A DNA stretch of 64,000 bases, taken from assembly GCA_963971425.1 (NCBI GenBank), contig OZ020516.1, positions 17,534,593 through 17,598,592 on the forward strand, given 5' to 3'. This document shows, one piece after another, positions 1-49,679 of this stretch. Origin of the DNA: Bryoerythrophyllum caledonicum (Eukaryota; Streptophyta; Bryopsida; Pottiales; Pottiaceae). Below the pieces are notes generated by a model. The model was given only the letters and a program-made list of their open reading frames with translations, ran no database searches and was not told the origin of the DNA. The translations under genes and the position numbers were made by a program. Position 1 is the first letter of the stretch, and each line of letters starts with the position of its first letter.

Positions 1-3000
1 TGCCTAGTTTTATTTGTTTGGTTGAGTTATATATCCCATAACCGGCTTTTTCTCGGTGCCAATGTCCCGGGCTTACTTCGGTTGGTTCTTTAAAGGAGCC
101 GTCAGTGTAGTAGCTAAAGTTGGGGTCAAATTTAAGGTCTGTATTAATTTGGTAGTAGGAGAGGGGGAGGCTCAATTCGGTAATTGGCGATGTGGAGATG
201 TTTGCGTGGGGGGTTTTAGACCATTTTTTGTTGCGGTTTACACGGGTTGAAATGGGTGTGGGAGAGGCAATTGCGGTGTATACCTTGTTAATGTTTAGAT
301 TCTTTGCTATCAACGTGAGATGATTGAGGTTTTCTAGAGTACCTATTTCTTGAGTTTGTTGATATATACAGAGGATACGTAGAGTTGCTGGTTCAAGGCG
401 GGGTGTTTGTATTTGCGGTGGTATAGTGGGTTCTTTGTAAGTCATAGAGTCTGCTTCAAATAATACTATAATGTGAGAGTCCGAGAATGGGCCTAAATGT
501 GGGTTAGGGTTGTGGTACCAATAAGTGTCGGGAGTGATAATAATGGTGATGTTGTGGTTGGAATCACTATTTGCCGCTAGGCGTGCCCAATGTGTTGCTT
601 GTTGTGTTTCTTCTTCGTTGTGAGGGTGTGCAAGGCCTATTCCGCTCCACTTATAATCAAAAGTTTTTCCCAGAGAACCAAAAATCTTATCGCGTTCAAA
701 TGGAGAGTAAAATTTAGAGATTTTTGTGGAGCATGTAACGGGGGATGAGAAGTATGAATGTGTAATATTCATAGATGTAATAAGGTAGTCTAGGATAGGA
801 TCGGGTAATGTGTAGTGTGCATTTTTAAGGGGGTCATTTTTGGGTATTCGGTATTTATATCTTTGGTATAGCCAAACAACATCGGTTTCAAATGTTTGGG
901 GTATTGGTTCAATGTTAATGGGGGTTTGTAGTGCGTTGTGATATTGGTTCCACAGCCATTGTAGTCTAGCGAGTGGTATGGTTATGAGATGTCTACCGTT
1001 ATCTTCATATATTTGGGCATTATCTTGTTGTATTTTGATTGTATTTGTTTGTGCTAGGATGTCAGTTTCCGGGTTGCATTCGGTTGTAAAGATGTTAAGA
1101 AGGGGGATAGTAAGAGGTGGCGTGACAAATCTTCTATCGCGAGGTTGTGTTTGGGGGTGGTGTAATTGTATGATATTAAGGTAATAATTGTTTTGGGTTC
1201 TAAGGTAGTATTGTGTGAGGATTTCGGTGTTATGTAAGGAGGTGTTCGGGTTGTGCCAAGGGAAAAGATTTCTTTGTGGAAGCCATTTGGCGTAGGTGTT
1301 GTTGTTGTGGGACCAATGGCATAGGTATGTCGTATATTGTTTGTTTATGTTGTTAGAGTCAATGTACTTTCTATGTTTGTGCGCGGTTATGTTGTTTATT
1401 GGATGTATGGAAGGATTTTTTAGTATATGTGGTGGAGGGGCATATGGATGTGAATGTGGCGGGTTTGGAGGGGTTAGTGGGGGGTTGATGTTGGGGTGGA
1501 TGCCATTGTGATTGATGATGTATGAGTCTTTAAGTGTGTACGGTGGGGCGTGGTTGGTGCAAGGGTTAGGGCATATAGGGAGACATGTAGGGTGACAAAA
1601 TAATTGTTTGGCAATATTTAATGCACTTTTTATTAATTTATGAGGGGTGCCATAGATTTTCTTGTAGCTCTTGTCGTTCATAAGGTGTGTTCCATTTGGT
1701 AGTGTGATTTGTTTTAGATCGGTAATGTTTGCGGAGAAAAGTTTTTGTAGGAGTTTGTCGGATAGTTGTCGGTCAAGTCTAGGGAGGTTATGTATTTCAT
1801 TTGCCCAGTTTTGTTCGAGCGGCGCAGGGTCTAGTAGGAAATCTTCTAGTGTGCTTTTTAGAAATGTTTGACCTTCTGTTTTAAGTAGGAAAAGTGTGCG
1901 GGTAATGGGAGACCTAAGACAGTCCGATTTTTTAAGTCTTTTGAGGTATTGTGCTCCTCCATAAATGGCAAGTATGTGCCGAAGGAGTCCACTGTAGATT
2001 AGTCCTAGTCGTCCTTTATCGTTAAGTGCGTTCTGGAGTTGTTCTCCAATACAACGTAAATAGGCGTTCTTAAGGGAAAAAGCTTCTAATCCAAATAGTT
2101 CGTGGGGGAGTTGTGTTATGACATTGGGCGTACAATTAGGGAGTCCGCATACTTTCTTTTGTATGGCTATGATTTTTTTGTCAAGTTTGTTAATGGCGGG
2201 CATGGAATAAGGGACCGCATAGAAACTATATGAGATACCCGGACGTATAACTGTATCAATCATTTTTATTTTTTGTTGCAGTGTGGCCGGACAGAGTGTA
2301 AGTTCCCTGCATTGTTTAATAAGTTTTGTAGTAGTAGCGTGAATTTGAATTTTCCATTTTAAAGATGGGACGAGGTTTATTCCAAGGTATATGTAGGGTT
2401 GGTTTTGGTTGAGAACCGGAATTGGTTGGTTACGATAGTGGATATTGGTAGCTTGGATAAGGGCTTTGAAGGCGGTCGGATTAATTTTGGACTTGTTTGG
2501 GCATCCGGTTACGGCACATTTTTGGACCCCGAGTTCCATCCCGGTCCATAGACAAAATTTGTCTATTTTGTCTAATTGAATTTGGAGTGATTTAAGACGT
2601 CCGGAGATGGCCGCTAGATCGTCGGCATATGCGGCCGAGTTTATGGTGATTTTAGAGGTTCCAAATGTGTAGCCATTATTGCCTCTTTGAAGCCATCTCA
2701 GAAGAGGTTCTAGAAAAATAATAAAGAGGTATGGGCTCAGTGTATCGCCTTGGATGGTGCCACGTTGGATGGGGATAGGGCGTGTTTTACCAAAGAATTC
2801 TCCGACGTATGTAGTGGTAGATTGGGAGTATATATTGCCAACTAGTGTTACTGTGTCTTCCGGGTATCCAAGATCACTCATAACTGCTAGCAATCGAGGA
2901 TGGTCAATGGAGCCAAATGCGTTTTTGAAGTCAATATAGAGTATGTAGATGTCTTTATTCGTGAATTTTGCATCCTCAAGAGCGGCAATGAGGGTTTGAA

Positions 3001-3945
3001 GTTGTCGTGTGGTACTTCTCTCGGCTCTAAACCCTTCTTGGCTTTCGTGTAAAATTTGGTGTATTTCTCCATAAGCCGATAATATTGATGTTAGTGTGCT
3101 AGTATATAGTTTGTAAATGGTGTTAGCTAAGGCAATGGGTCAGTGCTAAGGTAGCATGGATGGGTTGCCTTTTTTGTATAATAAGATTGTTAGACTTGTT
3201 TTCCAAGATGCGGGAATGGATTTTTGTTTGTAGCAGTGAAGGAAAAATAATGATAGAAGATCATGGAATCTTGGGGGCATATTTCTTAGAATTGAGTTGG
3301 GTATATGGTCCGGACCAAGGGCTTTGTTGGTTCCCAGATTTTTTAGACACATGTTGTATGTGTCTCTGTTATAATATGTGTGGAGACGTGTTGTTGGCTC
3401 GCCTCTTTTATCAATAGTGAATCCGTCTAGCTCATGCCACGGGTATTGTCTAACTCCGCATGTGCATGTTGGCAAATGTTGTGGTTGAAAGTGACATGGG
3501 GGGATGGTTGGTCTATTGTTTATGGATTGTTGAAGATGTATTTCGTTTGCAATGTCATCTGGGCTGGTTAATATGTTATTGTTTTGGTCTAAAATGCAGT
3601 CTAGTGGTAGGTTTGTGTTGTTTTTAAAGATTTTTCTATTAATTTTTTTTGGGTTGGTTTCGTATAATTGACGATATTTAGCTATAGCTTTTTTAACACA
3701 TTCTCTTGCATATTTTGTGGTAATTTTTCGGGCTTCTTTATTGGCGGTTTTTGCAATGATTGCAATATCTTTTAGCCAGTCTTCATGAGGGGTGTTGGGT
3801 GGTGGTACTTGTGGGATTAGGGGATAACGGAGGTTTTGTAGTTCGGAGAGTATGGGGTGGGTTTGCCAATTTTGGTTGGTTTTAGCAATATAAATTGTTT
3901 TGCGAATAGTGTGGTATGCGGCAAGATGTTGTTTCCACTTTTTGG
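1..3945 (-). pseudogene. LINE ORF2, decayed RT and RNase H part
   Basis: This continues ORF2 after the frame break near 3970. Readable pieces include 3475-3146 (RT fingers, with GPDHIPNSIL and SIPASWKTSL), 3072-2887 (GFRAERSTTRQLQTL-type region and DFKNAFGSIDHPRL) and the catalytic YADD at about 2615-2645. Comparison with copy 2 shows two in-frame stops at about 3138-3148, where copy 2 reads PNHRPIALAN. One of these is CGA to TGA, as expected from methyl-C deamination. The last readable segment (about 1-250) encodes the RNase H N-terminus with the first catalytic Asp preserved (YYTDGSF). The domain order EN-RT-RNase H is that of I-group and related LINEs. Confidence 0.85.
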
Positions 3946-5706
3946 CTAGTTTTCTTGGGAGATACCCCCTTGTTTTGAGGTTCTAGGTGTAAGCTGTGGT
4001 ATTGGGGGCGCTTTACAAGTCTTTTCTAGTGTAGTGGAAATTTCGTTGATGAGTTTGTCAAGAGTCGTGCAAGCTTCTTGCCATTGTATATGTGTGAGGT
4101 GTTGGTGGTTAGAAAGAGTATCTGTGAGGGAGTCTATTTGTGGTGAGTTTTTTTCAAAGAATATTGTATTAAATTTATCAAGGTTTTCTTTTGGGATGGG
4201 GTTTAATATTTTAATATCATTTGATTTGATGGTAGTGGGAGGTCTGCTTATAAGGGTGTTGTGAGGTATATTAAGTTGGATTGGGAAGTGGTCCAAGTTT
4301 AAGTTGGTTGAGGTATTAGTGATAGATGTATATCGAGTATGGTTAGGCGTTTTAATGTAAAATCCATCAATTAGGCTAGTGTGAGTGTAATTAAGACCAC
4401 CTTGCCGGGAGTATTGTGTATCGGTTGGGATTAAATGTAATTCTAGGTTATTCGTATAGTTTTGCCATTGATAGTCTATGTCCAGTGGAGGAGTGATAAT
4501 CCCTCCATTTTGTCTTCCAATAAGGGCGATGTCTCGGTTAAAGTCTCCGCAAAGTATTATTGTGTGATTAGTATGTGTATTTATTTGTGAAGTAATGGAA
4601 TTTTGGATTTCCGGAATAAATTTGGAGTCTTCTATGTGCGAGGGCATGTATAGGTGGAGAATGAGCCATGGTTGGAGTGGTCGATTAGTAATTTCAATAA
4701 TCTGGAGATATGGTGATATATTGGCCGGGGTAGGGATTTTAGTAATATTCCCGGGGAAGGCATATGATTGATGTATGAGCATGAGTAGACCTCCCCTTGC
4801 TGGTGTATATGGCCTTCGTTGTTGGATGCAACGTGTGAGAGAATGAGTGTTGTTAAATATAAGTTTATAGTTAGGGAATGTTTTTTGAATGTATTTTGTG
4901 GATTTGGTAGCGGTTATTTTAGTTTCCTGTATAGCAATTATGGCGGGTGGTGTGTCGGTGTGGGTGGTTAGATTGTGTATGCATGGTAAAGCAGTGTTTA
5001 ATGTTGAGGCGTTCCATGTGACTATATATGTATTTCTATTGTCTATATTGTCGTGGTTATAAAGTGAAGGGGGAATGTAGGCAGGTATCGGGGTGGGGTG
5101 CGTGTAGGTATGAATTGGTTCAAAGCATCTGAGAGCTTCAAGGATGAGATTGTGAGGAAAGTAGGGAAATTTTAGTTGTATTTCATTGGTGGAAGGGGGT
5201 ATGGTTTGGCTATGAATAAAGTTGTATAGGTCATTGTGTAGAGAGGTTTTGTGTTCAAAAAGGTGTTGATTTTCTTCTAGGAATTTAGTGTATGGGTGGA
5301 GTGTATCTATGTGTCTTTCAGGGGGATTATGTAGAGCGGATAAGGTGTTTAGTAATATATTTGTCCAATGTGTTGGGTTTGTGTTGGTAGAATTTTGGTT
5401 AGTGATATTGTTGCATTCGTCTATTGATGGGTGGAGGGTGGTAATTATGGCAAATAAGATATGTGTGGATGGGTGGTTGTTTTTTTGATATATATAGCGG
5501 GAGATGTTGGGGTAGAGGGTGGAGTAGTTTTGGTGAAGTATGTGATTACTTTTTAGGAGTGGTGCAAAGGAAGATGCTAGATGTTGATATTCGGGGTGGA
5601 GTTTTATAGTGTTCGGAATGAAATATATTTTTGATAACCTTTTGTGTATTTTTGGGTGGTTGTGGAAGACATTTGGCATTGGACCGGGGTTGGTTTCTAT
5701 GTCTCC
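3946..5706 (-). CDS. LINE ORF2 N-terminal part: 2A-like motif plus AP endonuclease
   Basis: A 577-codon open frame from ATG 5679 to a stop at 3946. Residues about 1-200 are a poorly conserved, Asn/His/Thr-rich leader. Residues about 218-470 are an apurinic-type endonuclease (EEP fold) with W222-N223, Q251-E252-T253-K254, G378-D379-F380-N381, D438 in LIDGFY and D463-H464, so all expected catalytic positions are present. It would nick target DNA to prime reverse transcription. The frame has no stop upstream of the ATG as far as 6018 and reads GDIETNPGP directly before the Met. It ends because a G run near 3965-3972 has five Gs where copy 2 has six; copy 2 reads on into the RT linker. The codon bias towards A/C-rich codons differs from the host genes. 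Confidence 0.85.
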   Translation of the reverse strand, partial: GDIETNPGPMPNVFHNHPKIHKRLSKIYFIPNTIKLHPEYQHLASSFAPLLKSNHILHQNYSTLYPNISRYIYQKNNHPSTHILFAIITTLHPSIDECNNITNQNSTNTNPTHWTNILLNTLSALHNPPERHIDTLHPYTKFLEENQHLFEHKTSLHNDLYNFIHSQTIPPSTNEIQLKFPYFPHNLILEALRCFEPIHTYTHPTPIPAYIPPSLYNHDNIDNRNTYIVTWNASTLNTALPCIHNLTTHTDTPPAIIAIQETKITATKSTKYIQKTFPNYKLIFNNTHSLTRCIQQRRPYTPARGGLLMLIHQSYAFPGNITKIPTPANISPYLQIIEITNRPLQPWLILHLYMPSHIEDSKFIPEIQNSITSQINTHTNHTIILCGDFNRDIALIGRQNGGIITPPLDIDYQWQNYTNNLELHLIPTDTQYSRQGGLNYTHTSLIDGFYIKTPNHTRYTSITNTSTNLNLDHFPIQLNIPHNTLISRPPTTIKSNDIKILNPIPKENLDKFNTIFFEKNSPQIDSLTDTLSNHQHLTHIQWQEACTTLDKLINEISTTLEKTCKAPPIPQLTPRTSKQGGISQEN

Positions 5707-5730
5707 GTAGAGTATAATTAATAGTTTGAA
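5680..5730 (-). other. 2A-like ribosome-skipping motif upstream of ORF2 ATG
   Basis: In the ORF2 frame the codons just before ATG 5679 encode FKLLIILYGDIETNPGP. This fits the 2A consensus D-(V/I)-E-x-N-P-G-P, preceded by a Leu-rich helix-like stretch and a Gly, exactly as in active 2A peptides. In that family the ribosome skips the Gly-Pro bond, giving two proteins from one frame. 2A-like sequences are known at the N-termini of some non-LTR retrotransposon ORFs in trypanosomes and marine invertebrates. No ATG lies upstream in this frame before the stop at 6018, so its use would need readthrough, a non-AUG start or a spliced or ancestral longer frame. Confidence 0.8.
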
Positions 5731-5769
5731 ATGAGTAGTGTTTATAGCTACTAGTGGGATGGGTGTGGG

Positions 5770-6009
<240 letters not shown>

Positions 6010-6195
6010 TAGTATTTATATATTATAGTATATAAATATACTATGGTATTTTTTTAAATATACTATGGTATATAAATATACTATGGTATTTATCTTTTCT
6101 TTTATATATATATTTAAATATTTTGAGGTTTTTGATATGTATTTTAGTATATATATATACTATAGTTTGGTTTGTTGTAGCGTTGTTTGACGCTA
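6010..6195. repeat. AT-rich spacer with short tandem repeats
   Basis: This sequence separates the LINE ORF1 stop from the CAA tract. It contains repeated tatactatggtat-type units (about 6030-6085) and AT dinucleotides. In the frame shared by ORF1 and ORF2 it holds stop codons TAG at 6195-6193, TAG near 6162 and TAA at 6018-6016. Confidence 0.85.
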
Positions 6196-7782
6196 TTAGT
6201 TTGACGTGTCCATTTTGCTTTCGATGGCTCGTTGCTCACGTTCCGAGGCTTGTGTTTCCGCTGCCATGATGGTTGCAATGAGTTGGGATCGGAGAGTCGT
6301 CATTTCCCCTCGTAGGGATTTCACCGTGTTTGCTTGTACCATATCCGCATATTGCCTTGCCTCTTCCACGATTTCTCCTTTCATGGTTTTCATTTCCCTT
6401 CGGAGTTGTTGAAGAGTGACACCGTTACCTTGCTTTGGGTCGTTTTCCATAGCAATTACCGCGTTCGCTACCGCTGCGTTCACATCCGAAAATCCTAGTC
6501 TTGTCAATTCATCTACACTGGGTTTGTTGCTACCGTCTAGACTCTTAGGGTGGGGGGTAAACATTATGTATTTACCATGAAGTTTTTTACTTTGTTTGAC
6601 AAATTTCTTATATACCGCTGCGTTTAGACATTCAATATTGCAAGTGCCAACATGTCTTCCATGTTCGAGTTTGAAGAATGTATCTACCACATTCTCTTCC
6701 CCAAGTATGGATTTAATTCCCTCCGTTAGTTCTTTTTCATTTTTCGTTTTGTTGAGGTTTTTCGCAATTAGAATTAGGCAATTCTTTCTTGCAAGTTCAT
6801 CCTCATCCATCTTCCGAGTTGCAAAGATTGGCACAAAAATCTCATTATCAAATGAGATTTTGTAATCCTTTACTTTGGCCGCTTGCTCCGGAGAGGGGGT
6901 TTTAACCCATGCAAATTCTGATAATCCCTTTTTCTCTACCCCCGTTACTTCAAAATCATACCCCCGGGCAAAGCTATCTCTCACGATTTCAGCATGTAGG
7001 TCATATGCTTCTCTATTGGCTAGGTTTGGACCAGATATTTTGACCGACAAAAGATGTGAGAATGCCAAGGCATCATATGACTTGCATATTTTGCCTTTGT
7101 GTGGGATTCCATCATTCAAAGTGAGAATGAATGGCCTTGTCCCTTGCAATAATCCCTTGGCATCCACATCAGGGTTCTTTAGGTGTAATTTGATAGCTCC
7201 ACTCCAATTTTCGGATTGGTGATAACAAAACACAGCTATGGGTTCACCAATGCGGGACCCAGTAGGGATTTCCATCTCTTTGAGTCGTGATTTTACCATG
7301 TCAAGAATCACTTCTTTTGCCCATTTTTGATCACCAAGTTCAAAATGGATTGAAACTTGATAATCCAGGGCGTAGCCATCTTCATCTACCTCAACTTCAC
7401 TTGGAAGTTGGGTGAGGTTGAAGTGGTTGCCAATTTTTCCATCCACTCTATTCGAAGACCATTCTTCCTGGGGGACAAATGGGAACGAGGGCATTGCACT
7501 AACATTTTCAGCTGCCTCTTTCCTATTAAGACCATCTTTGACCAAGTCTTCTACGGTTTTTAAAGGCACTTTCGGGCTCCCATTCTTTTTTGCCAAAATG
7601 TTCATTGTGTGAAAGCCTAGCCAGAATTTGGTGCAAGGCAAACTTGTTGCCTTAACCTTTTTCTGGATGGCACTAGCAATGATCAAAGCATTTTCATTTT
7701 CATTCAAATCGCAAGGGTTTTGCTCAAGTACATCAACAAACAAACGTTTTGAGGGGCTCACCGCAACTTGAAGCTGAGACAT
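6196..7782 (-). CDS. LINE ORF1-type RNA-binding/coiled-coil protein
   Basis: A 528-aa protein if it starts at ATG 7782 (MSQLQVAVSPSK). The frame stays open up to 8745, but the added part is low-complexity (Pro/Gln/Ala) and looks non-coding. Residues about 334-412 look RRM-like: a beta strand CLILIAKNLN, then GRHVGTCNIECLNAAVYKKF resembling RNP1 plus a helix. Residues about 455-525 form a Glu/Arg/Met-rich heptad region predicted as coiled coil. The central part (about 140-320) has a Trp-containing region (ENWSGAIKLHLKNP) that I do not recognise. No CCHC knuckle is seen. Position upstream of ORF2 on the same strand and in the same frame supports an ORF1 nucleic-acid chaperone role. A host gene captured beside the LINE is the alternative. 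Confidence 0.7.
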   Translation of the reverse strand: MSQLQVAVSPSKRLFVDVLEQNPCDLNENENALIIASAIQKKVKATSLPCTKFWLGFHTMNILAKKNGSPKVPLKTVEDLVKDGLNRKEAAENVSAMPSFPFVPQEEWSSNRVDGKIGNHFNLTQLPSEVEVDEDGYALDYQVSIHFELGDQKWAKEVILDMVKSRLKEMEIPTGSRIGEPIAVFCYHQSENWSGAIKLHLKNPDVDAKGLLQGTRPFILTLNDGIPHKGKICKSYDALAFSHLLSVKISGPNLANREAYDLHAEIVRDSFARGYDFEVTGVEKKGLSEFAWVKTPSPEQAAKVKDYKISFDNEIFVPIFATRKMDEDELARKNCLILIAKNLNKTKNEKELTEGIKSILGEENVVDTFFKLEHGRHVGTCNIECLNAAVYKKFVKQSKKLHGKYIMFTPHPKSLDGSNKPSVDELTRLGFSDVNAAVANAVIAMENDPKQGNGVTLQQLRREMKTMKGEIVEEARQYADMVQANTVKSLRGEMTTLRSQLIATIMAAETQASEREQRAIESKMDTSN

Positions 7783-25953: not shown

Positions 25954-28900
25954 ATGACGCTCCTGGCGATCTTGGTGTTCGTCCTGTCCGCCTCTCCTCT
26001 GATATCTGCTCAAGGTGAGATTCTCCTCCCCAGATAATGTGGGGTGGGTGTAGAATAGACATGGCGATGATGTGTGATTTCAGGAACTTCTTCTGCCATC
26101 CGTTTTGTGTTTGTGGAATGTCTGGAGGTATGGCTTCGAGTCCCTGATATGTGAAAATGCAGGTGGTCCGTATGTGAAGCGGATAGCGTGCGGTTCGCTC
26201 ACCGAGAAGTACAGCGCGGGTAAAAACGTGTGGGAGAAGGACCAGGGCTTCACAGGAGGGAGCATCGCCGCTTCAGTTGCAGTGCGGAACCCCGAAGTGC
26301 CGCAGCTCAACACGCTCCGCTACTTTCAGAACTCGGATGGCCTGGAGAATTGTTACAACATCACCGCCCCAGTCGGTCGGTACCTGATCAGGTAAGGTCT
26401 TCTGAGTTTTCGGGTGACATGCAGCTTAGTTTTGATCCACTAGCTATGGTTTTCAGGTTATTCTTCGCCTATGGAGAGCCAGACAACAACAGCCGCGAGC
26501 CGCGGTTCGACGTTTCCATCGAGGGCACGCTCGTCTACAGGCTCAGCACAGGCTGGAGCGAGGACCCGGAGGATGCATACCGGGACTCCCTGGTGCACGT
26601 CAACGACGGCGCGGCAACCATCTGCTTCCACGCCTCCAACCACGGGAACCCAGCCGTGGCCTCCATCGAGCTTCTGCAGATCCTCGACGACGCATATAAC
26701 CCAGACCCAAAGGTGATACTGAAGACCATGAAGCGAGTGAGCGCAGGCGCGAGACGGTCCGGGTTTGGAAGCGAGTTTCACGCAGATCCATGGGCTGGGG
26801 ACCGGTTCTGGCAATCCGACAGCAGCCTCTTCCTCCCGGGCTCGAAAGTGGACTCCATCACCACCACACAGAACATCACGCGGTACTCCATCCCGCCGAA
26901 TCTCTACCCCATGGACATCTTCCAGTCCGCGACAGTCACCACGGACGAGATGCAGAGCCTGTCTTACACGCTACCCGTGGACGCCAACATGCGATACTCC
27001 ATCTGGATCTACTTGGCGGAGATCTCGCCCTTCGTGGTGCGTCCCCAGGACCGCGTCTTCGATGTGTTTGTGAACAAGAAGCGCGTGCTGGCGGCCGTGG
27101 ATGTCGTGGACCAGGCGCCGGGGAAGTTCACGGCGCTTGTCTTGAGTGTCACGGTCATGGTGGAGGTCGCCTCGCTGGTGTTGACGTTCAGTCCCATCTT
27201 CGGCGCTGTTGCTGTGAACGCCTTCGAGATTTACCAGATGGTGCCCATGGATGCCGCTACTGTCAAGACTGATTGTAAGCTGTGCTACAAGCACCCCTTT
27301 GTTGTTTTAGCAGTTTTGATCAGTATTTCAAGGCCTAGATGCAAACTATCTAGACCTTGTTGTGTTTTCAAATCTAGACCTTCTTGTTATCTCGACCTTG
27401 TTACCTGGACCTCAAGCTTCATCCATGGTTTGTGACTAGTCGTGTTTTTTGTAGTATGGGCGTTGCAGTCGCTGAAGCAGTCGCTGGGGTTGCCGGCGAG
27501 CCATGGATGGAATGGAGACCCATGCGTGCCGCAAGTGCACACCTGGCTTGGAGTGCGCTGCGAGTTCAACGCTTCGAGAAACTCCTGGCGCATTCATGGA
27601 TTGTACGTAATTCTTGCAACGTTAGTTCAAGCTGACAGTGTTTTATGTGGGTTCCTCACCATCGATGTCTCTATTTGATGTGGTTTTTGCGGTTTCCTCA
27701 CTGCTCGATGTGCAGGTTTTTGGAAGTGCAAGGAGTGCGGGGAGTGCTGGGTGAGGAGATAGGATCATTGTCAGGCGTCCAAGTCCTGTACGTCAAACCA
27801 CACGTCTACGCTTAATATCGTCTTGTAACTTAGTTCGGTGCGTGTGAGTGATGTGCACCTGACTTTTTTCTATGGCGTCTGTGTTACAGGAACATAAGCC
27901 ACAACACGCTGCAAGGATCCATTCCTGCGTCTATTGGAAACCTCTCATCCCTTGTGATATTGTAAGCGTTTGTACTTGCTGCTACATTGATGAATCTGGA
28001 TCATTGTTGGGGTTAACTGTTGGGTTGTCAACCTGCGCAGAGACCTTTCCCACAACCATCTCAATGGTTCAATACCTGCATCTCTTGGCACCCTTCCAAA
28101 TCTCAAGAAACTGTAAGTTTTTCCATCGTTTTTTTCCCTGAAAAACTCAATCCTTGAGACGTTCTCACCACTTCGTCGTTTTTCAGGCTCTTGAATGACA
28201 ACCAGCTCAGTGGAGAAGTCCCATCCACTCTCGGTGCTGGTGCTCTTCGCGGTGCCAATCTCAAGTAAGATATCTATTTCCAGTCACCTCTTTGTTTGCC
28301 ATCTATTAGAGTTAGTTGTAAAGTCACCTAAAGCTTCAACGAGATCCCCCCTTTTCTGGTTTTTATACTACTCTTTCCTCACCCCAAATAGCTACTAGAT
28401 CAATAGAAGAGCCTGGTGGTCTCTCAAGTCTGAAGTAGTTCTAATGAAGATGAAGGTCATGTTGTATCATGAATCTTACCATGAAACTCAACCGTCTCTC
28501 TCCTCTTCCACTCAAATGTAGAGCTATTTCAAGCTCATAGAAGTCAATACTCATGCCTCACTTCACAAATAACTCAACATCATCACTGCAAAGCTGTTGG
28601 AGGATGAAGATGAAGGTCATGTTGTATCATACCGTGAATCTCAACCGTCTCTTTCCTCTTCCACTTCAATCTAGACAATTCAGAGCTGAATTTAGTAACG
28701 AAAAGAGAGGAAAGAGGTCAACACTCGTGGTGTCTTTGCCTCAGCTCTACGTTATCACTGCTCCAGCTTTGCAGGTAACGATGGGCTCTGCGGAGTGGGC
28801 CTGAGGCCATGCGACGCCGGGAAGAGCGACAAGAGCAGCGCTGCTGCGGCGCTGCGCGTGACAGCTTTTGCGGTGGTTTTGGTGGCTGCCCTGATGGCTG

Positions 28901-42391: not shown

Positions 42392-42719
42392 CCCCAGTAA
42401 CCGACAAGTTCAACAATATGCATATATGGAGAGAACAAATAATAATACATTTACTTTTTAGTGATAGCCAATAGAATCACAACATTACACCAAGTGATTT
42501 CATATTTTTCCAATGAAATGTAAACTAGTTATGATTTTTGTGTTGCCATGGTAAGCCGGTAATTGCTAACCGGTACCCTCCATAAGCACCGACCAAGAGT
42601 AAGGGGTTCTGACTAGTAGCAAATCTTCCTTTGGAATTGAATGGGTGGTAATGGGATGGAAGTGGTTTGGATATACCTCAATTTTATAGGTGTCGGGTTA
42701 TAAGTTTTGGTTGGTACCC

Positions 42720-44450
42720 AACATTTCCCGCTACATACATCAAAAAAACAACCACCCGTCCACACATATCATATTCGCCATAATTACCACCCTCCACCCT
42801 TCAATAGATGAATGCAACAATATCACCAACCAACATTCTACCCACACAAACCCAACACATTGGACAAATATATTACTAAACACCCTATCCTCTCTACATA
42901 ATCCCCCTGAAGGACATACAGATACACTTCACCCATACATTAAATTTCTAGAGGAAAACCAACACCTTTTTGAACACAAAACCTCTCTACACAATGACCT
43001 ATATAACTTTATTCATAGCCAAACCCCACCTCCTTCTCCCGATGAACTACAACTAAAATTTCCTACTTCTCGCACAATCTCATCCTTGAAGCTCTTAGAT
43101 GCTTTGAACCAATTCATGCTTACACGCATCCCACCCCGACACCCGCCTACATTTCCCCTCCACTTTGTAACCACGACAATATAGACAATAGAAACACATA
43201 TATAACTACATGGAACGCCTCAATGTTAAACACTGCTTTACCATGCATCTACAATCTAACCGCCCACACCAACACACCACCTGCCATAATTGCCATACAA
43301 GAAACTAAACTAACTGCTACTAAATCCACAAAATACATCCAAAAAACATTCCCCGATTACAAACTTATATTTAATAACACTCATTCTCTCACAAGATGCA
43401 TCCAACAACGGAGGCCATATACACCGGCAAGAGGAGGTCTACTCATGCTCATACACCAATCATATGTCTTCCCCAGGAATATTACTAAAATCCCTACCCC
43501 GGCTAATATATCACCATATCTTCAAATTATTGAAATTACTAACCGACCCCTCCAACCATGGCTCATTCTTCATCTATACATGCCCTCGCACATAGAAGAC
43601 TCTAGGCTTATTCCAAAATTCCATCACTTCACAAACAAATACACACACTAACCATACAATAATACTTTGCGGAGACTTTAACCGAGATATTGCCCTTATC
43701 GGACGACAAAACGGAGGGGTTTTTACCCCCCACTTGACATAGACTATCAATGGAAAAATTATACGGATGACCTAGAATTATATTTAATCCCAACTGATAC
43801 ACAATACTCTCGTCAAGGTGGACTTAATTACACACACACTAGCCTACTTGATGGATTTTACATTAAAACACCTAACCATACCCGATATACATCTATTACC
43901 AATACCACAACCAACTTAAACTCGGACCACTTCCCAATCCAACTCAATATACCTCACAACATCCTTGTAAGTAGACCTCCCACAACCATCAACTCAAATG
44001 ATATTAAAATACTAAACCCCATCCCAAAAGAAAACCTTGATAACTTTAATACAATATTCTTTGAAAAAAACTCACTACAAATAGACTCCCTTACAGATAT
44101 TCTTTCTAACCACCAACACCTCACACACATACAATGGCAAGAAGCTTGCACGACTCTTGACAAACTTATTAATGAAATTTCTACTATATTAGAAAAGACT
44201 TGTAAAGCACCCCCGATTCCACAACTCACACCTAGAACCTTGAAACAAGGGGGGTATCTCCCGAGAAAACTAGCCAAAAAGTGGAAACAACATCTTGTCA
44301 CATACCACACTATTCATAAAACAATTTATATTGTTAGAACTAACCAAAATTGGCAAACCCACCCCATACTCTCTGAACTACAAAACCTCCGTCACCCTCA
44401 AATCCCACAAGTACCACTACCCAACACCCCTCACGAAGACTAGCTAAAAG
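42720..44450 (+). pseudogene. LINE copy 2 endonuclease region
   Basis: Frames 42720-43184, 43223-43651 and pieces beyond match copy 1 ORF2 residues from about 57. IQETK is readable at about 43300 and GDFN at about 43672-43685, but in different frames because of indels near 43185-43220 and 43640-43660. DSRLIPKFHHF replaces the intact reading of copy 1. Confidence 0.85.
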
Positions 44451-44788
44451 ACATTGCAATCATTGCAAAAGCTACCAACAAAGAAGCTCGGAAAATTACT
44501 ACAAAATATGCAAGAGAATGTGTCCAAAAATCCATTTCTAAGTATCGTCAATTCTACGAAACTAGCCCAAAAAAGATTAATAGAAAAGTCGTTTAAAATA
44601 ACACAAACCTGCTACTAGATTGCATTTTAGATCAAAACAATAACATTCTAACCAACCCAGATGACATCGCAAACGAAATACATTTTCAACAATCCATAAA
44701 CAACAAACCATCCACCCCCCCATGTCACTTCCAACCACAACATACATCAACATGCACGTGCGGAGTTAGGCAATACCCGTGGCATGAT

Positions 44789-46452
44789 TTGAATGGATTT
44801 ACCATTGATAAAAGAGGCCAACCAACTACACCTCTCCACACATATTATAACAGAGACACATACAACATGTGTCTAAAAAATTTCGGAACCAACAAAGGCC
44901 CCGGCCCAGACCATATATCTAACTCAATTCTAAAAAACATGCCCCCAAGATTCCATGACCTTCTATCATTATTCTTTCTTCATTGTTACAAACAAAAATC
45001 CATTCCCGCATCTTGGAAAACAAGTTTAACAATCTTATTATACAAAAAAGGCGACCCATCCGTGCTACCTAACCACCGACCTATTGCTTTAGCTAACACC
45101 ATTTACAAATTATATACTAGCACACTAACATCAATATTATCGGCCTACGGGGAAAAACACCAAATATTACACGAAAGCCAAGAAGGGTTTAGAGCCAAGA
45201 GAAGTACCACACGACAACTTCAAACCCTCATTGCCGCTCTTGAGGATGCAAAATTCACTAATAAAGACATCTACATACTCTACATTGACTTCAAAAACGC
45301 ATTCGGTTCCATTGACCACCCTCGATTGCTAGCCATTATGAGCGATCTTGGATACCCAGAGGACGTAGTCACACTGGTTGGCAATATATACTCCAAATCT
45401 ACCACTACATACACTGGAGAATTCTTTGGTAATACACGCCCTATCCCCATCCAATGAGGTACCATCCAAGGCGATACATTGAGCCCATACCTCTTTATTA
45501 TTTTTCTAGAACCTCTATTGAGATGGCTTCAAAGAGGTAATAATGGCTACACATTTGGCACCTCAAAAGTCACCGTAAACTCAGCCGCATATGCCGACGA
45601 TCTAGCGGCCATCTCCGGACGTCTTAAATCATTCCAAATTCAATTAGACAAAATAGACAAATTTTGTTTATGGACCGGGATGGAACTTGGGGTCCAAAAA
45701 TGTGCCGTAACTGGATGCCCAAACAAATCAAAATAAATCCGACCGCCTTCAAAGCCCTTATCCAAGCTACCAATATCCACTATCGTAACCAACCAATTCC
45801 GGTTCTCAACCAAAACCAACCCTACATACACCTTGGAATAAACCTAGTTCCATCGTTAAAATGGAAAATTCAAATTCACGCTACTTCTACAAAATTTATT
45901 AAACAATGCAATGAACTTACACTATGTCCGGCCACATTGCAACAAAAAATAAAAATGATTGATACCGTCATACGTCCGGGTATCTCATATAGTTTCTATC
46001 CGGTCCCTTATTCCATGCCCGCCATAAACAAACTTGATAAAAAAATCATAGCCATAGAAAAGAAAGTATGCGGACTCCCTAATTGTACGCCCAATGTCAT
46101 AACACAACTCCCCCATGAACTATTCGGATTAGAAGCTTTTTCCCTCAAAAATGCCTATCTACGTTGCATTGGAGAACAACTCCAAAATGCACTTAACGAC
46201 AAGGGACGACTAGGACTAATTTACAATGGACTCCTACGGCACATCCATGCCATTTATGGAGGAGCACAATACCTCCAAAGACTTAAAAAATCTGATTGCC
46301 TTCGGTCTCCCATTACCCGCACACTTTTTCTACTCAAAACAGAAGGCCAAACATTTCTTAAAAGCACACTAGAAGATTTCCTACTAGGCCCCGTGCCGCT
46401 TGAACAAAATTGGGCAAATGAAATACATAATCTCCCTAGACTTGACCGATAA
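44789..46452 (+). pseudogene. LINE copy 2 reverse transcriptase
   Basis: 44789-45457 encodes RT fingers and palm: GPGPDHISNSILKNMPPRF, IPASWKTSLTILLYKKGDP, HRPIALANTIYKLYT, GFRAKRSTTRQLQTLI and LYIDFKNAFGSIDHPRLL (first catalytic Asp). A TGA at 45455-45457 interrupts the motif RGTIQGDTLSPYLF, where copy 1 keeps Arg. The next frame 45479-45736 has AAYADDLAAISG with the catalytic Asp pair and the thumb start WTGMELGVQKCAVTGCPNKSK, which ends in a stop; an overlapping frame continues the thumb to 46452 (YLHLGINLVPSLKWKIQIH, MIDTVIRPGISYSFYPVPYS). Confidence 0.9.
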
Positions 46453-46536
46453 TTATCCGCCAAACTCCTACAAAAACTTTTTTCCGCAAACATTACCGAT
46501 CTAAAACAAATTACACTACCAAATGGAACACACCTT

Positions 46537-47706
46537 ATGGACGACAAGAGCTACAAAACATTCTACGGTACCCCTCACAAATTAATAAAAAGTGCACTAA
46601 ATATTGCTAAACAATTATTTTGTCATCCTCCATGCCTCTCTATATGCCCCAACCCTTGCACCACTCACGCCCCACCTTACACACTTAAAGACCTGTACAT
46701 CATTGGTCACAATGACATCCACCCCAACATCAACCTCCCATTAATCCCTCCAAACCCACCACAGTCACGACCATATGCCCCTCCACCACATATATTAAAA
46801 AATCCTTCCATACACCCAATAAATAACATAACCGCACACAAACATAGAAAGTATATTGACTCCAACAACATAAGCAAACAATATACGTCATACCTATGCC
46901 ATTGGCCCCACAATAACACCACCTACGCCAAATGGCTCCCACAAAGAAATCTTTTCCCTTGGCACAATCCAAACGCTTTCTTACATAACACCGAAATCCT
47001 CACACAATACTACCTAAGAACTCAAAACAGTTATTACCTGAATATCATACAATCACACCACCTCCAAGCACAACTTCAAGATAGAAGATCTGTCACACCA
47101 CCTCTTATAATCCCCCTCCTGAACAACTTTACAACCGAATGCAACCCCAAAACTAACATCCTCGCACAGAAAAATACAATCAAAATACAACAAGATAATG
47201 CCCACATATACAAAGGTAATGGTAGACACCTAATAACCATACCACTCGCTAGACTACAATGGCTGTGGAACCAATATCACAACGCACTACAAACCCCCAT
47301 TTGCATTGAACCAATACCCCAAACATTTGAAACCAAAATTGTTTGGCTATACCAAAGATATAAATACCGTATATCCAAAAATGACCCCCTTAAAAATGCA
47401 CACTACACATTACCCGATCCTATCTTAGACTACCTTATTACATCTTTGAATATCACACATTCATACTTCTCATCCCCCGTTACATGCTCCACAAAAATTT
47501 CAAAATTCTACTCTCCATTCGAATGTGATAAGATTTTTGGTTCTCTTGGAAATGCTTTTGATTATAGGTGGAGCGGAATAGGCCTTGCACACCCTCACAA
47601 CGAAGAAGAAACACAACAAGCAATACATTGGGCACGCCTAGCGGCAAACAATGATCCCAACCACAACATCACCATTATTATTACTCTATTGGTACCACAA
47701 CTCTAG
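46537..47706 (+). pseudogene. LINE copy 2 post-RT region
   Basis: A 389-codon open stretch between RT and RNase H, Asn/His/Pro/Thr-rich. It includes IARLQWLWNQYHNALQTPI-type text and a segment FGSLGNAFDYRWSGIGLAHPHNEEETQQAIHWARLAA, followed by NITIIITLL, which is conserved in the mirror region of copy 1 (about 530-1930). I recognise no domain in it. Its length of about 2 kb between RT and RNase H is notable for a LINE. Confidence 0.65.
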
Positions 47707-48034
47707 CCCACACTTAGGCCCATTCCCGGACTTTCACATCATAGTACTATTTGAAGCGGACTCTATGACTTACAAAGAACCCACTATACCACCGCAAATA
47801 CAAACACCCCGCCTTGAACCAACAACCCTACGTATCCTATGTATACATCGTCAAACTCGAGAGATAGGTACCCTAGAAATCCTCACTCATCTCACTTTGA
47901 TAGCAAAAAATCTAAACATTAACAAGGTATACACCGCAATAGACCCGCCCACACCTATTTCAATCCGTGTAAACCGTAACAAAAAATGGTCTTAAACCCC
48001 CCACACAAACATCTTTGCACTACCAATTACCGAA

Positions 48035-48778
48035 TTGAGCCTCCCACTCCCCAATTACCAAATTAATACCGACCTTAAATTTGACCCCAACTTTAGCTAC
48101 TACACTGAGGGCTCCTTTAAAGAACCAACCGAAGTTAGCTCGAGACATTGGCACCGAGAAAAAGCCGGTTATGGGGTACACAATTCAACCAAACAAATTA
48201 AATTAGGCAAAAAACTACACGGACTCCAAAATATTCTAAGAGCCGAAATGATGGCTATACACAAAACCCTTAAGATAATCACCACTCAATACCCAAACGA
48301 ACTGGCTCACATTTTTACAGATTGCATATATGTATTATATCTCCTTAATACACACGTAAAACACCCCACTTTACACAATAGTCACCCGGACAAAACTATC
48401 CTCACATCTATGGTTGTAATGCTCCAAAATCGCACACAAATTACTACACTCCACAACGTCCGAGCTCATGCTAATATTGCTGGCAATGAACAAGCCGACA
48501 AACTAGCAAAGGAAGGAAGAGAAAAAACCCACAAGAATGCCGAACACCCATACAAACACGCCCGTGCCACCCCATATTACTTTCATAGATATGAATGGTC
48601 CTCTATAGGCAAAACTCCCGATAAAGGCCCCATACGATTCTTGGACAAATACCTCAAAAAACATGATCTTGTAAATAACCTGGAAAAACTTACAAGAATT
48701 TCCCCAATATTGATAAATGGACCGGCAACCCAAACATTCACGATGTACTGTCCAACAATTTTTGGAAAAACCCCATAA
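48035..48778 (+). pseudogene. LINE copy 2 RNase H domain
   Basis: RNase H fold motifs in order: YYTEGSFKEP (first catalytic Asp replaced by Glu), AGYGVHN, LRAEMMAIHKTL (catalytic Glu), HIFTDCIYVLYLL (catalytic Asp) and NVRAHANIAGNEQADKLAKEG (His loop and last Asp). In copy 1 the first motif reads YYTDGSF. The domain would remove RNA template during first-strand synthesis. Confidence 0.85.
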
Positions 48779-48828
48779 TTACGGATCCACAAATCACATG
48801 CCTAATCAAATTTTGCACCGGACAATAC

Positions 48829-49563
48829 ATGGGAAATGCCGGCAAACAACTCTTCTTCGGAATAGAAAGATTTTCTACAATAACATGTCCAATTTGCAAC
48901 ACCACGGACCCGGACACATGGCTACATGTCTTACTCAAGTGCCAAAACCCCCATATACACTCACTAATTGTCAAAAGACAAAACAAAGCCGTATGGGCAA
49001 TTCGTAAACTACTCGTATCATCAAACCAATCCCGTTGCTTTACTCCCTTGAATGCCGGAACCTTTAATGACAACCCACAGGAAAATACGGTCTCGTGGTG
49101 GCTATTACCATGCATATGTTGCACTCAAAGATGCCACTGTAATGTAAGATTCAAACCCGACCTTCTATGTGTTAGAGGACTATCATACAAAGATCCCCCA
49201 CCAAACCACATAGACCCTAGTCTCACTATTCAATTTATTGAATTCACGTATTGCAATGATAGATTCTCTCCGGACACTATTGCAAACAAAACAAATAAAT
49301 ACCAACCACTACTTGACAATATTCAAGCACTAGGATGGAAAGTAGACCCCCTCATTGTCATCACCGCGGGTGCTAGAGCCACCACCTTCATTCCCTCAAT
49401 GACAACCCTTGAAGAAACATTTAACCTCCCCATCACTTCAATCAAAACCACTTTTTCAAATATCAAAATTATTGCAATTCAACATGCTATGTCGATACTC
49501 CTACATAAACGAAAACTGGAAAACAATCAACCCCTTCCTGACGCTTGGGACCCCCCTCCATAG
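48829..49563 (+). pseudogene. LINE copy 2 C-terminal CCHC domain and tail
   Basis: CPICNTTDPDTWLHVLLKC gives a C-x2-C-x9-H-x4-C knuckle, followed by HIHSLIVKRQNKAVWAIRKLL, a conserved C-terminal block in several LINE lineages. The frame runs to a stop at 49561-49563. Downstream is the 3' UTR. Confidence 0.8.
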
Positions 49564-49679
49564 ACTAACATTTGCATTTCACCGTACACGCCCTCCCTCT
49601 TTTGGAGACTTTTGGGACCTATGGTCCTTTGTTCTTGGCTACTTGTTACTAGGTACATAGTGTCTACCCTTGAAAGGGG

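Follow-up and report, generated by a model that had tools for sequence, protein, structure and literature searches.

The closest described systems include several non-LTR retrotransposons. The trypanosome LINEs L1Tc and ingi, from kinetoplastid hosts, consist of a single open reading frame with an AUG-started 2A, and are not known to have an ORF1 or a frameshift. Odon 2013 is said to describe 2A sequences that mediate recoding in APE-type non-LTR elements of animals; the elements reportedly belong to animal clades, and the 2A is said to tend to accompany loss of ORF1. Eukaryotic and viral 2As are reportedly the subject of Rao 2025 (Cell Rep). Retroviruses and LTR elements make Gag-Pol by -1 frameshifting, with a heptamer and a protease. 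In the literature examined, 2A sequences are named for non-LTR elements of trypanosomes and sea urchins as well as for some sea-urchin genes, and cardioviruses have StopGo beside -1 frameshifting (PMC4981915, PMC5972666, PMC5009743, PMC11512398, PMC8310308, PMC8623073). According to a 2026 survey, StopGo motifs are almost absent from plant viruses even though StopGo works in plant cells; the survey detected no natural use by plant viruses and ascribes its six matches to misclassified hosts (PMC12846837).

The window, by which we mean the whole stretch of 64,000 nucleotides that was analysed, contains on its minus strand an element in which ORF1, a linker, a 2A-like peptide and ORF2 follow each other (Table 1). 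The preliminary description had taken the frame after the 2A-like motif for ORF2 of a plant LINE. Its assignment to a LINE is borne out by the reverse transcriptase domain, by the RNase H of a second copy in the window, by the 5' truncation of that copy and by the solved structures closest to ORF2, among which R2 proteins were the best matches and L1 ORF2p was also matched. The plant origin is supported by a gene with a malectin-like domain, which has no match in the PDB at 1e-5, and by AUX/IAA domains, detected at two loci of the assembly (437 Mb in 894 contigs) and in none of 14 control genomes. Such a small AUX/IAA number would suit an early-diverging land plant.

Table 1 Coordinates of the features identified in the window
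Feature	Position	Strand	Remarks
Malectin-like domain gene	26224-27435	+	Pfam E 1.5e-30
ORF1, 528 aa	6199..7782	-	no confident Pfam match; stop TAA 6198-6196, second stop TAG 6195-6193
Proposed -1 shift site A-AAC-TA	6197..6202	-	AAC 6201-6199 is the final sense codon before the stop
Linker between ORF1 and 2A	5734..6195	-	window copy: out of -1 register, 3 stops
Tract of 79 CAA/CAG units (78 CAA, 1 CAG)	5773..6009	-	inside the linker
2A-like peptide HFKLLIILYGDIETNPGP	5733-5680	-	ATG 5679 directly after; core conserved in 40/40 copies, purifying selection
Expected skip point	between Gly 5685-5683 and Pro 5682-5680	-	predicted from the 2A motif
ORF2 from Pro of NPG/P	1..5682	-	continues past the left edge of the window; broken
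APE-type endonuclease region (weak)	4279..5022	-	PF14529 E 1e-4, PF03372 E 4e-4, both below Pfam cut-offs
Reverse transcriptase	2375..3139	-	PF00078 (RVT_1) E 3.3e-26
PCIF1-like domain after the reverse transcriptase	530..901	-	PF12237 E 4.7e-10; PDB 6irx E 0.074
Second copy, 5'-truncated	about 42715-49565	+	begins inside ORF2, downstream of the 2A
RNase H in the second copy	about 48149-48520	+	E 3.7e-13

The window copy is degenerate and lies outside the -1 frame discussed below. Its ORF2 changes frame between 3982 and 3946 and contains two stops, 3148-3146 and 3142-3140, and the second copy, which begins downstream of the 2A, is uninformative on this motif. ORF1 was found by tblastn in 25 of 25 copies including that of the window, with an identity down to about 45% over its length. 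A domain related to PCIF1, of the cap-adenosine methyltransferase family, sits in ORF2 after the reverse transcriptase and before the RNase H. PCIF1 carries an NPPF motif; AHPH was placed by eye at this position in the window copy, L001 and L014, and the PCIF1-like domain of the element is therefore probably not catalytic. When viral contigs were searched with the reverse transcriptase half of ORF2, four stretches matched a pattern and none was confirmed as a relative.

Further copies were collected by a six-frame genome search using the 2A and ORF2-start protein as a query, in which 85 of 5,299 candidates were scored. In all 85 scored matches the alignment began at query residue 1-3 and so spanned the 2A; finding the copies with a 2A-containing query may have biased the sampling. 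The 43 loci that we read consisted of L001-L024, stretches of 10 kb that cover the 20 best other matches and four lower ones, L027-L041 (about 2.5 kb each, picked chiefly for long frames) and two divergent relatives (L042 and L043), with L025 (filler sequence) and L026 (ends short of the motif) left out of the counts. The family set thus comprises 40 copies including the window copy, plus the two relatives; 44 of the 84 other matches are outside the sample, which leans to close, long-framed copies.

Because the main query contained the 2A, the PCIF1-like domain was used as a 2A-independent probe. The comparison covered 150 scored of 2,614 candidates for this domain and the first 100 of 1,624 places for the 2A. 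On the listed part of contig C1, 8 of 16 PCIF1-like matches were preceded on their own strand, at a distance of 4.7-5.9 kb, by an intact 2A, compared with an expectation of about 0.005 per match. All four matches with open frames of at least 1500 aa on this part of C1 had an upstream 2A, and the remaining 8 of the 16, which had no such 2A, all had frames under 650 aa. Open frames of exactly 3,087 aa with an identical score made up 33 of the 150 scored PCIF1-like matches; these frames represent a very recent burst of near-identical copies. In each of the three 3,087-aa copies on the listed part of C1, the 2A lies exactly 4,773 bp upstream.

In the window, the minus-strand codons ...THFKLLIILYGDIETNPGP run without interruption up to ATG 5679, and the core GDIETNPGP occupies 5706-5680, confirming the motif that had been read at the start of ORF2. 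A chance match had been judged very unlikely and is now ruled out: the pattern GGNGAYNTNGARNNNAAYCCNGGNCC matched once in the 64 kb window and never in 100 dinucleotide shuffles, and across the whole genome the codon pattern GD-x-E-x-NPGP had 1,624 exact matches, 827 on one strand and 797 on the other, and the reversed control pattern had none on either strand. Variants among the first 100 of these 1,624 places included GDIETNPGP, GDIEKNPGP and GDIEQNPGP. The StopGo core is given as (D/G/C/N)(V/I)ExNPGP in the 2026 survey (PMC12846837), and the GDIETNPGP of all 40 copies falls within it.

Analysis of the 40 copies indicated that the motif is maintained by selection. The GDIETNPGP core was identical in every one of them. 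Divergence was estimated from pooled pairs of 30 unique rows, which represent every copy except L027, too short to be included (39 of 40). The core displayed a pN of 0.000 for a pS of 0.231, the nine codons preceding it a dN/dS of 0.27 and the whole 18-codon 2A a dN/dS of 0.15; the first 50 codons of ORF2 gave 0.088 and the 13 linker codons immediately upstream of the 2A gave 1.04. All the segments compared sat in the search query, and the contrast between them is therefore not produced by the query. The preliminary description had named copies without the motif, or neutral decay within it, as signs against a functional 2A; none of the 39 other copies examined lacked the motif, and the core values show no such decay. 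With a linker at 1.04 directly beside an unchanged core, we infer that the 2A peptide is translated and under purifying selection in the ORF2 frame.

The position of this frame relative to ORF1 was then read in the 39 copies with a readable ORF1 end; L028 was excluded since no ORF1 end lies within its stretch. The 2A frame was -1 relative to ORF1 in 32 of them, and the distance from the ORF1 stop to the 2A ranged from 263 to 1793 nt. Linkers of the 32 copies at -1 contained 4 stops in the 2A frame versus 372 and 206 in the other two frames. They were stop-free in the 2A frame in 28 of 32 cases (the other four copies carry one linker stop) and in either other frame in 0 of 32. As related copies are not independent, the linkers were grouped into 14 clusters, 10 of which included copies at -1; in the non-repeat head of the linker, one representative of each of these 10 clusters had 0-1 stops, compared with averages of 4 to 24 in shuffled sequences (P 0.01 or less each). 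The -1 frame overlaps the 3' end of ORF1 in every one of the 32 copies that have it, by 16 to 175 nt. An in-frame AUG between the opening of the frame and the 2A was absent from 28 of 40 copies and present once or more in 12, ruling out such an AUG as a general start. The -1 relation, the absence of an AUG in most copies and the overlap with the ORF1 3' end together indicate that frameshifting would precede skipping.

The seven copies not at -1 are the window copy, L011, L018, L022, L023, L024 and L031. ORF2 is interrupted in all six that could be traced into it, L031 being too short to tell. Among the 24 ten-kb copies and the window copy, 7 have an ORF2 open to the end of the stretch, and all 7 are at -1, but an interrupted ORF2 is seen as well in 12 of the 19 ten-kb copies at -1.

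Linkers are of variable composition. Their CAA/AAC tract ranges from none (L043) to about 1 kb (L027) and reads poly-Asn, poly-Gln or Asn-His in the 2A frame. The idea that the frame relation is a by-product of triplet repeats is weakened by L043, which has the same relation without a tract, and by the stop counts in the non-repeat head. A/T palindromes of the AGTATA..TATACT type occur in the linkers of the window copy (6162-6145, minus strand) and of others, for example L014 and L035, and translate in the 2A frame to peptide repeats resembling IVYIYT. Some subfamilies, represented by L028, L031, L035 and L036, have very long linkers, of about 590 codons or, in L028, no fewer than 754 open codons ahead of the 2A; in L031, L035 and L036 the linker is rich in Lys, Asn, Thr and Pro.

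With overlaps of 16 to 175 nt, a single common shift site would have to lie in the last few codons of ORF1. At this place the sequence A-AAC-TA stands unchanged in all 39 copies, which form 26 unique rows: entropy was zero at positions -4..+1, and the neighbouring base on each side varied. The ORF1 stop was TAA or TAG and never TGA in these 39 copies. A full heptamer, G UUA AAC followed by UAG, which we take to be of the arterivirus type, was only present in L031, L035 and L036. The standard heptamer X XXY YYZ is absent from the other 36 of 39 copies, where UCA, ACA or CCA precedes AAC and disallows re-pairing in the P site; only the tRNA on AAC could re-pair in those copies. A small hairpin just past the ORF1 stop and an AGTATA..TATACT palindrome about 35 nt further on recur in many copies. 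In an alignment of 13 sequences, 88% of the cells of this downstream hairpin were paired, and its covariation score was reached by 53 of 500 shuffles. The hairpin is thus a candidate frameshift stimulator with a high degree of pairing, though its covariation does not stand clearly apart from the shuffled background.

After the frame hypothesis had been recorded, the two divergent relatives L042 (GDIEKNPGP) and L043 (GDIEQNPGP) were chosen solely by their motif variant. At the start of ORF2 they share 59% and 53% identity, respectively, with the window copy. In both, ORF1 ends with AAAC-TAA or AAAC-TAG, the 2A is at -1 and Met follows NPGP. Their linkers, each with one in-frame ATG, have 0 stops in the 2A frame versus 12 and 6 (L042) and 8 and 8 (L043) in the other frames, and L043 has no CAA tract. 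The hypothesis of a shift site and a -1 frame therefore held in both of the relatives picked later.

Collectively, these data make it quite likely that an abundant, recently active plant LINE family produces ORF2 through a -1 frameshift at the ORF1 stop followed by 2A skipping. The sequence itself shows a 2A under selection, an open -1 frame and an invariant hexamer; that ribosomes shift and skip, and at what rates, is inferred from them. Termination at the ORF1 stop would be the usual outcome. With tRNA-Asn on AAC and UAA or UAG in the A site, a fraction of the ribosomes would slip one base back (A-AAC-UAR to AAA-CUA) and would read the linker, which is of low complexity and measures 0.26 to 1.8 kb or more, in the -1 frame. 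At ...LLIILCGDIETNPG/P the Gly-Pro bond would not be formed, the ORF1-linker-2A product would be released, and the same ribosome would continue to make a free ORF2 starting with Pro-Met, in keeping with the release predicted in the preliminary description. The shift would set a low, Gag-Pol-like ratio of ORF2 to ORF1, and the 2A would keep ORF2 from staying attached to ORF1. This layout suggests why the 2A is kept, namely that it undoes the fusion that frameshifting would make.

An open linker leading into a 2A is accounted for equally well if the -1 frame is entered without a shift, by non-AUG or internal initiation near the end of ORF1, with the 2A acting as proposed; the 12 of 40 copies with an in-frame ATG between the opening of the frame and the 2A are in agreement with this. 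Initiation of this kind, however, does not account for the constancy of A-AAC-UA where ORF1 stops, nor for an overlap with ORF1 in all 32 copies at -1. Inspection by eye also revealed no shared near-cognate start, the codons after CTA differing between families. We consider this explanation unlikely, although it survives better than the others.

The AUG after NPGP has a C at -3 in 40 of 40 copies and a C (37 copies) or an A (3 copies) at +4, and this poor context speaks against initiation there. An out-of-frame ATG is found in the linker of 10 of the 32 copies at -1, which argues against re-initiation at this AUG. ORF2 could nevertheless be made by re-initiation or internal entry at this codon, the 2A codons being an untranslated ancestral leftover: AUG 5679 is the first AUG past the ORF1 stop in the window, the leader is A-rich, and the Met after NPGP is invariant in 30 of 30 rows. 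A leftover 2A would not give a pN of 0.000 for a pS of 0.231 beside a neutral flank, nor would it leave the linker nearly stop-free in the 2A frame only. We regard initiation at this site as very unlikely, and the ATG after NPGP is probably not what opens the frame.

One class of viral StopGo sequences is L-rich and ends in (A/S/C)G before Asp (PMC12846837). The family consensus upstream of Asp, LLIILC-G, fits this class; the residue before GD is Cys in 24 of the 30 unique rows, Cys or Ser in 25 and Gly in 4, and the window copy, with a Tyr at this position, is off the A/S/C-G class. This composition bears on the possibility that the peptide is translated and selected for another role, for instance in N-terminal signalling or ribosome pausing, and causes little skipping. 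Sea-urchin 2A-like sequences do double as signal sequences (PMC4981915), but the plant family keeps the very residues on which StopGo depends, the final NPGP among them, and its Leu-rich upstream part matches an active viral class; we find this alternative highly improbable. Least credible of all is a splicing event joining the linker to ORF1: the linker is A/T-rich and splicing is compatible with the DNA data, but in 28 of 32 copies the unspliced frame already runs unbroken between ORF1 and the 2A, making an intron unneeded, and the invariant A-AAC-UAR is, by eye, no splice signal.

The occurrence of 2A in LINEs is already known; the literature examined contains no description of such an element with a plant host, a retained ORF1 or a stop-codon frameshift followed by a 2A. 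No plant retrotransposon 2A was found among the literature matches listed, in agreement with the earlier statement that no case was described in a land-plant LINE; priority is subject to Odon 2013 and Rao 2025, which might list plant cases. With somewhat less assurance than for the mechanism itself, we favour the view that this is a land-plant LINE superfamily, with more than 1,600 motif copies in one genome, in which a shifty stop A-AAC-UAR, mostly without a heptamer, precedes StopGo; it would provide the first known natural plant 2A and the first known frameshift-fed 2A in a retroelement. A natural plant family with many variants would represent a source of plant-evolved 2A sequences, and the variants a natural experiment on the residues that ribosomes require. 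The layout from ORF1 to ORF2 also offers, for this plant LINE family, a testable answer to the question of how LINEs express ORF2.

Like the plant family, the trypanosome LINEs L1Tc and ingi are non-LTR elements with a 2A-like peptide in frame with the encoded proteins; unlike the plant family, they are not known to have an ORF1 or a frameshift. The animal 2A LINEs of Odon 2013 reportedly likewise have multicellular hosts, whereas the plant family keeps an ORF1 linked at -1 and resides in a land plant; the pattern in which a 2A replaces ORF1 is absent here, ORF1 being present in 25 of 25 copies. SART1 and L1 face the same problem of translating an ORF2 after an ORF1 and solve it by termination and re-initiation, whereas the plant linker is coding in the -1 frame (PMC5972666). 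In the cardioviruses EMCV and TMEV, StopGo and a -1 frameshift are also close together in one message (PMC5009743, PMC11512398). In these viruses StopGo precedes the shift, which puts an end to expression downstream; in the plant LINE the shift would come first and open the way to the 2A and the polymerase. The likeness to Gag-Pol is the partial -1 entry from a gag-like ORF into a polymerase ORF; the differences are that the slip in the plant LINE, which lacks a heptamer in 36 of 39 copies, would take place directly at the stop and that a 2A stands in place of the protease. If true, this would be a protease-free route to Gag-Pol-like ratios with separate products.
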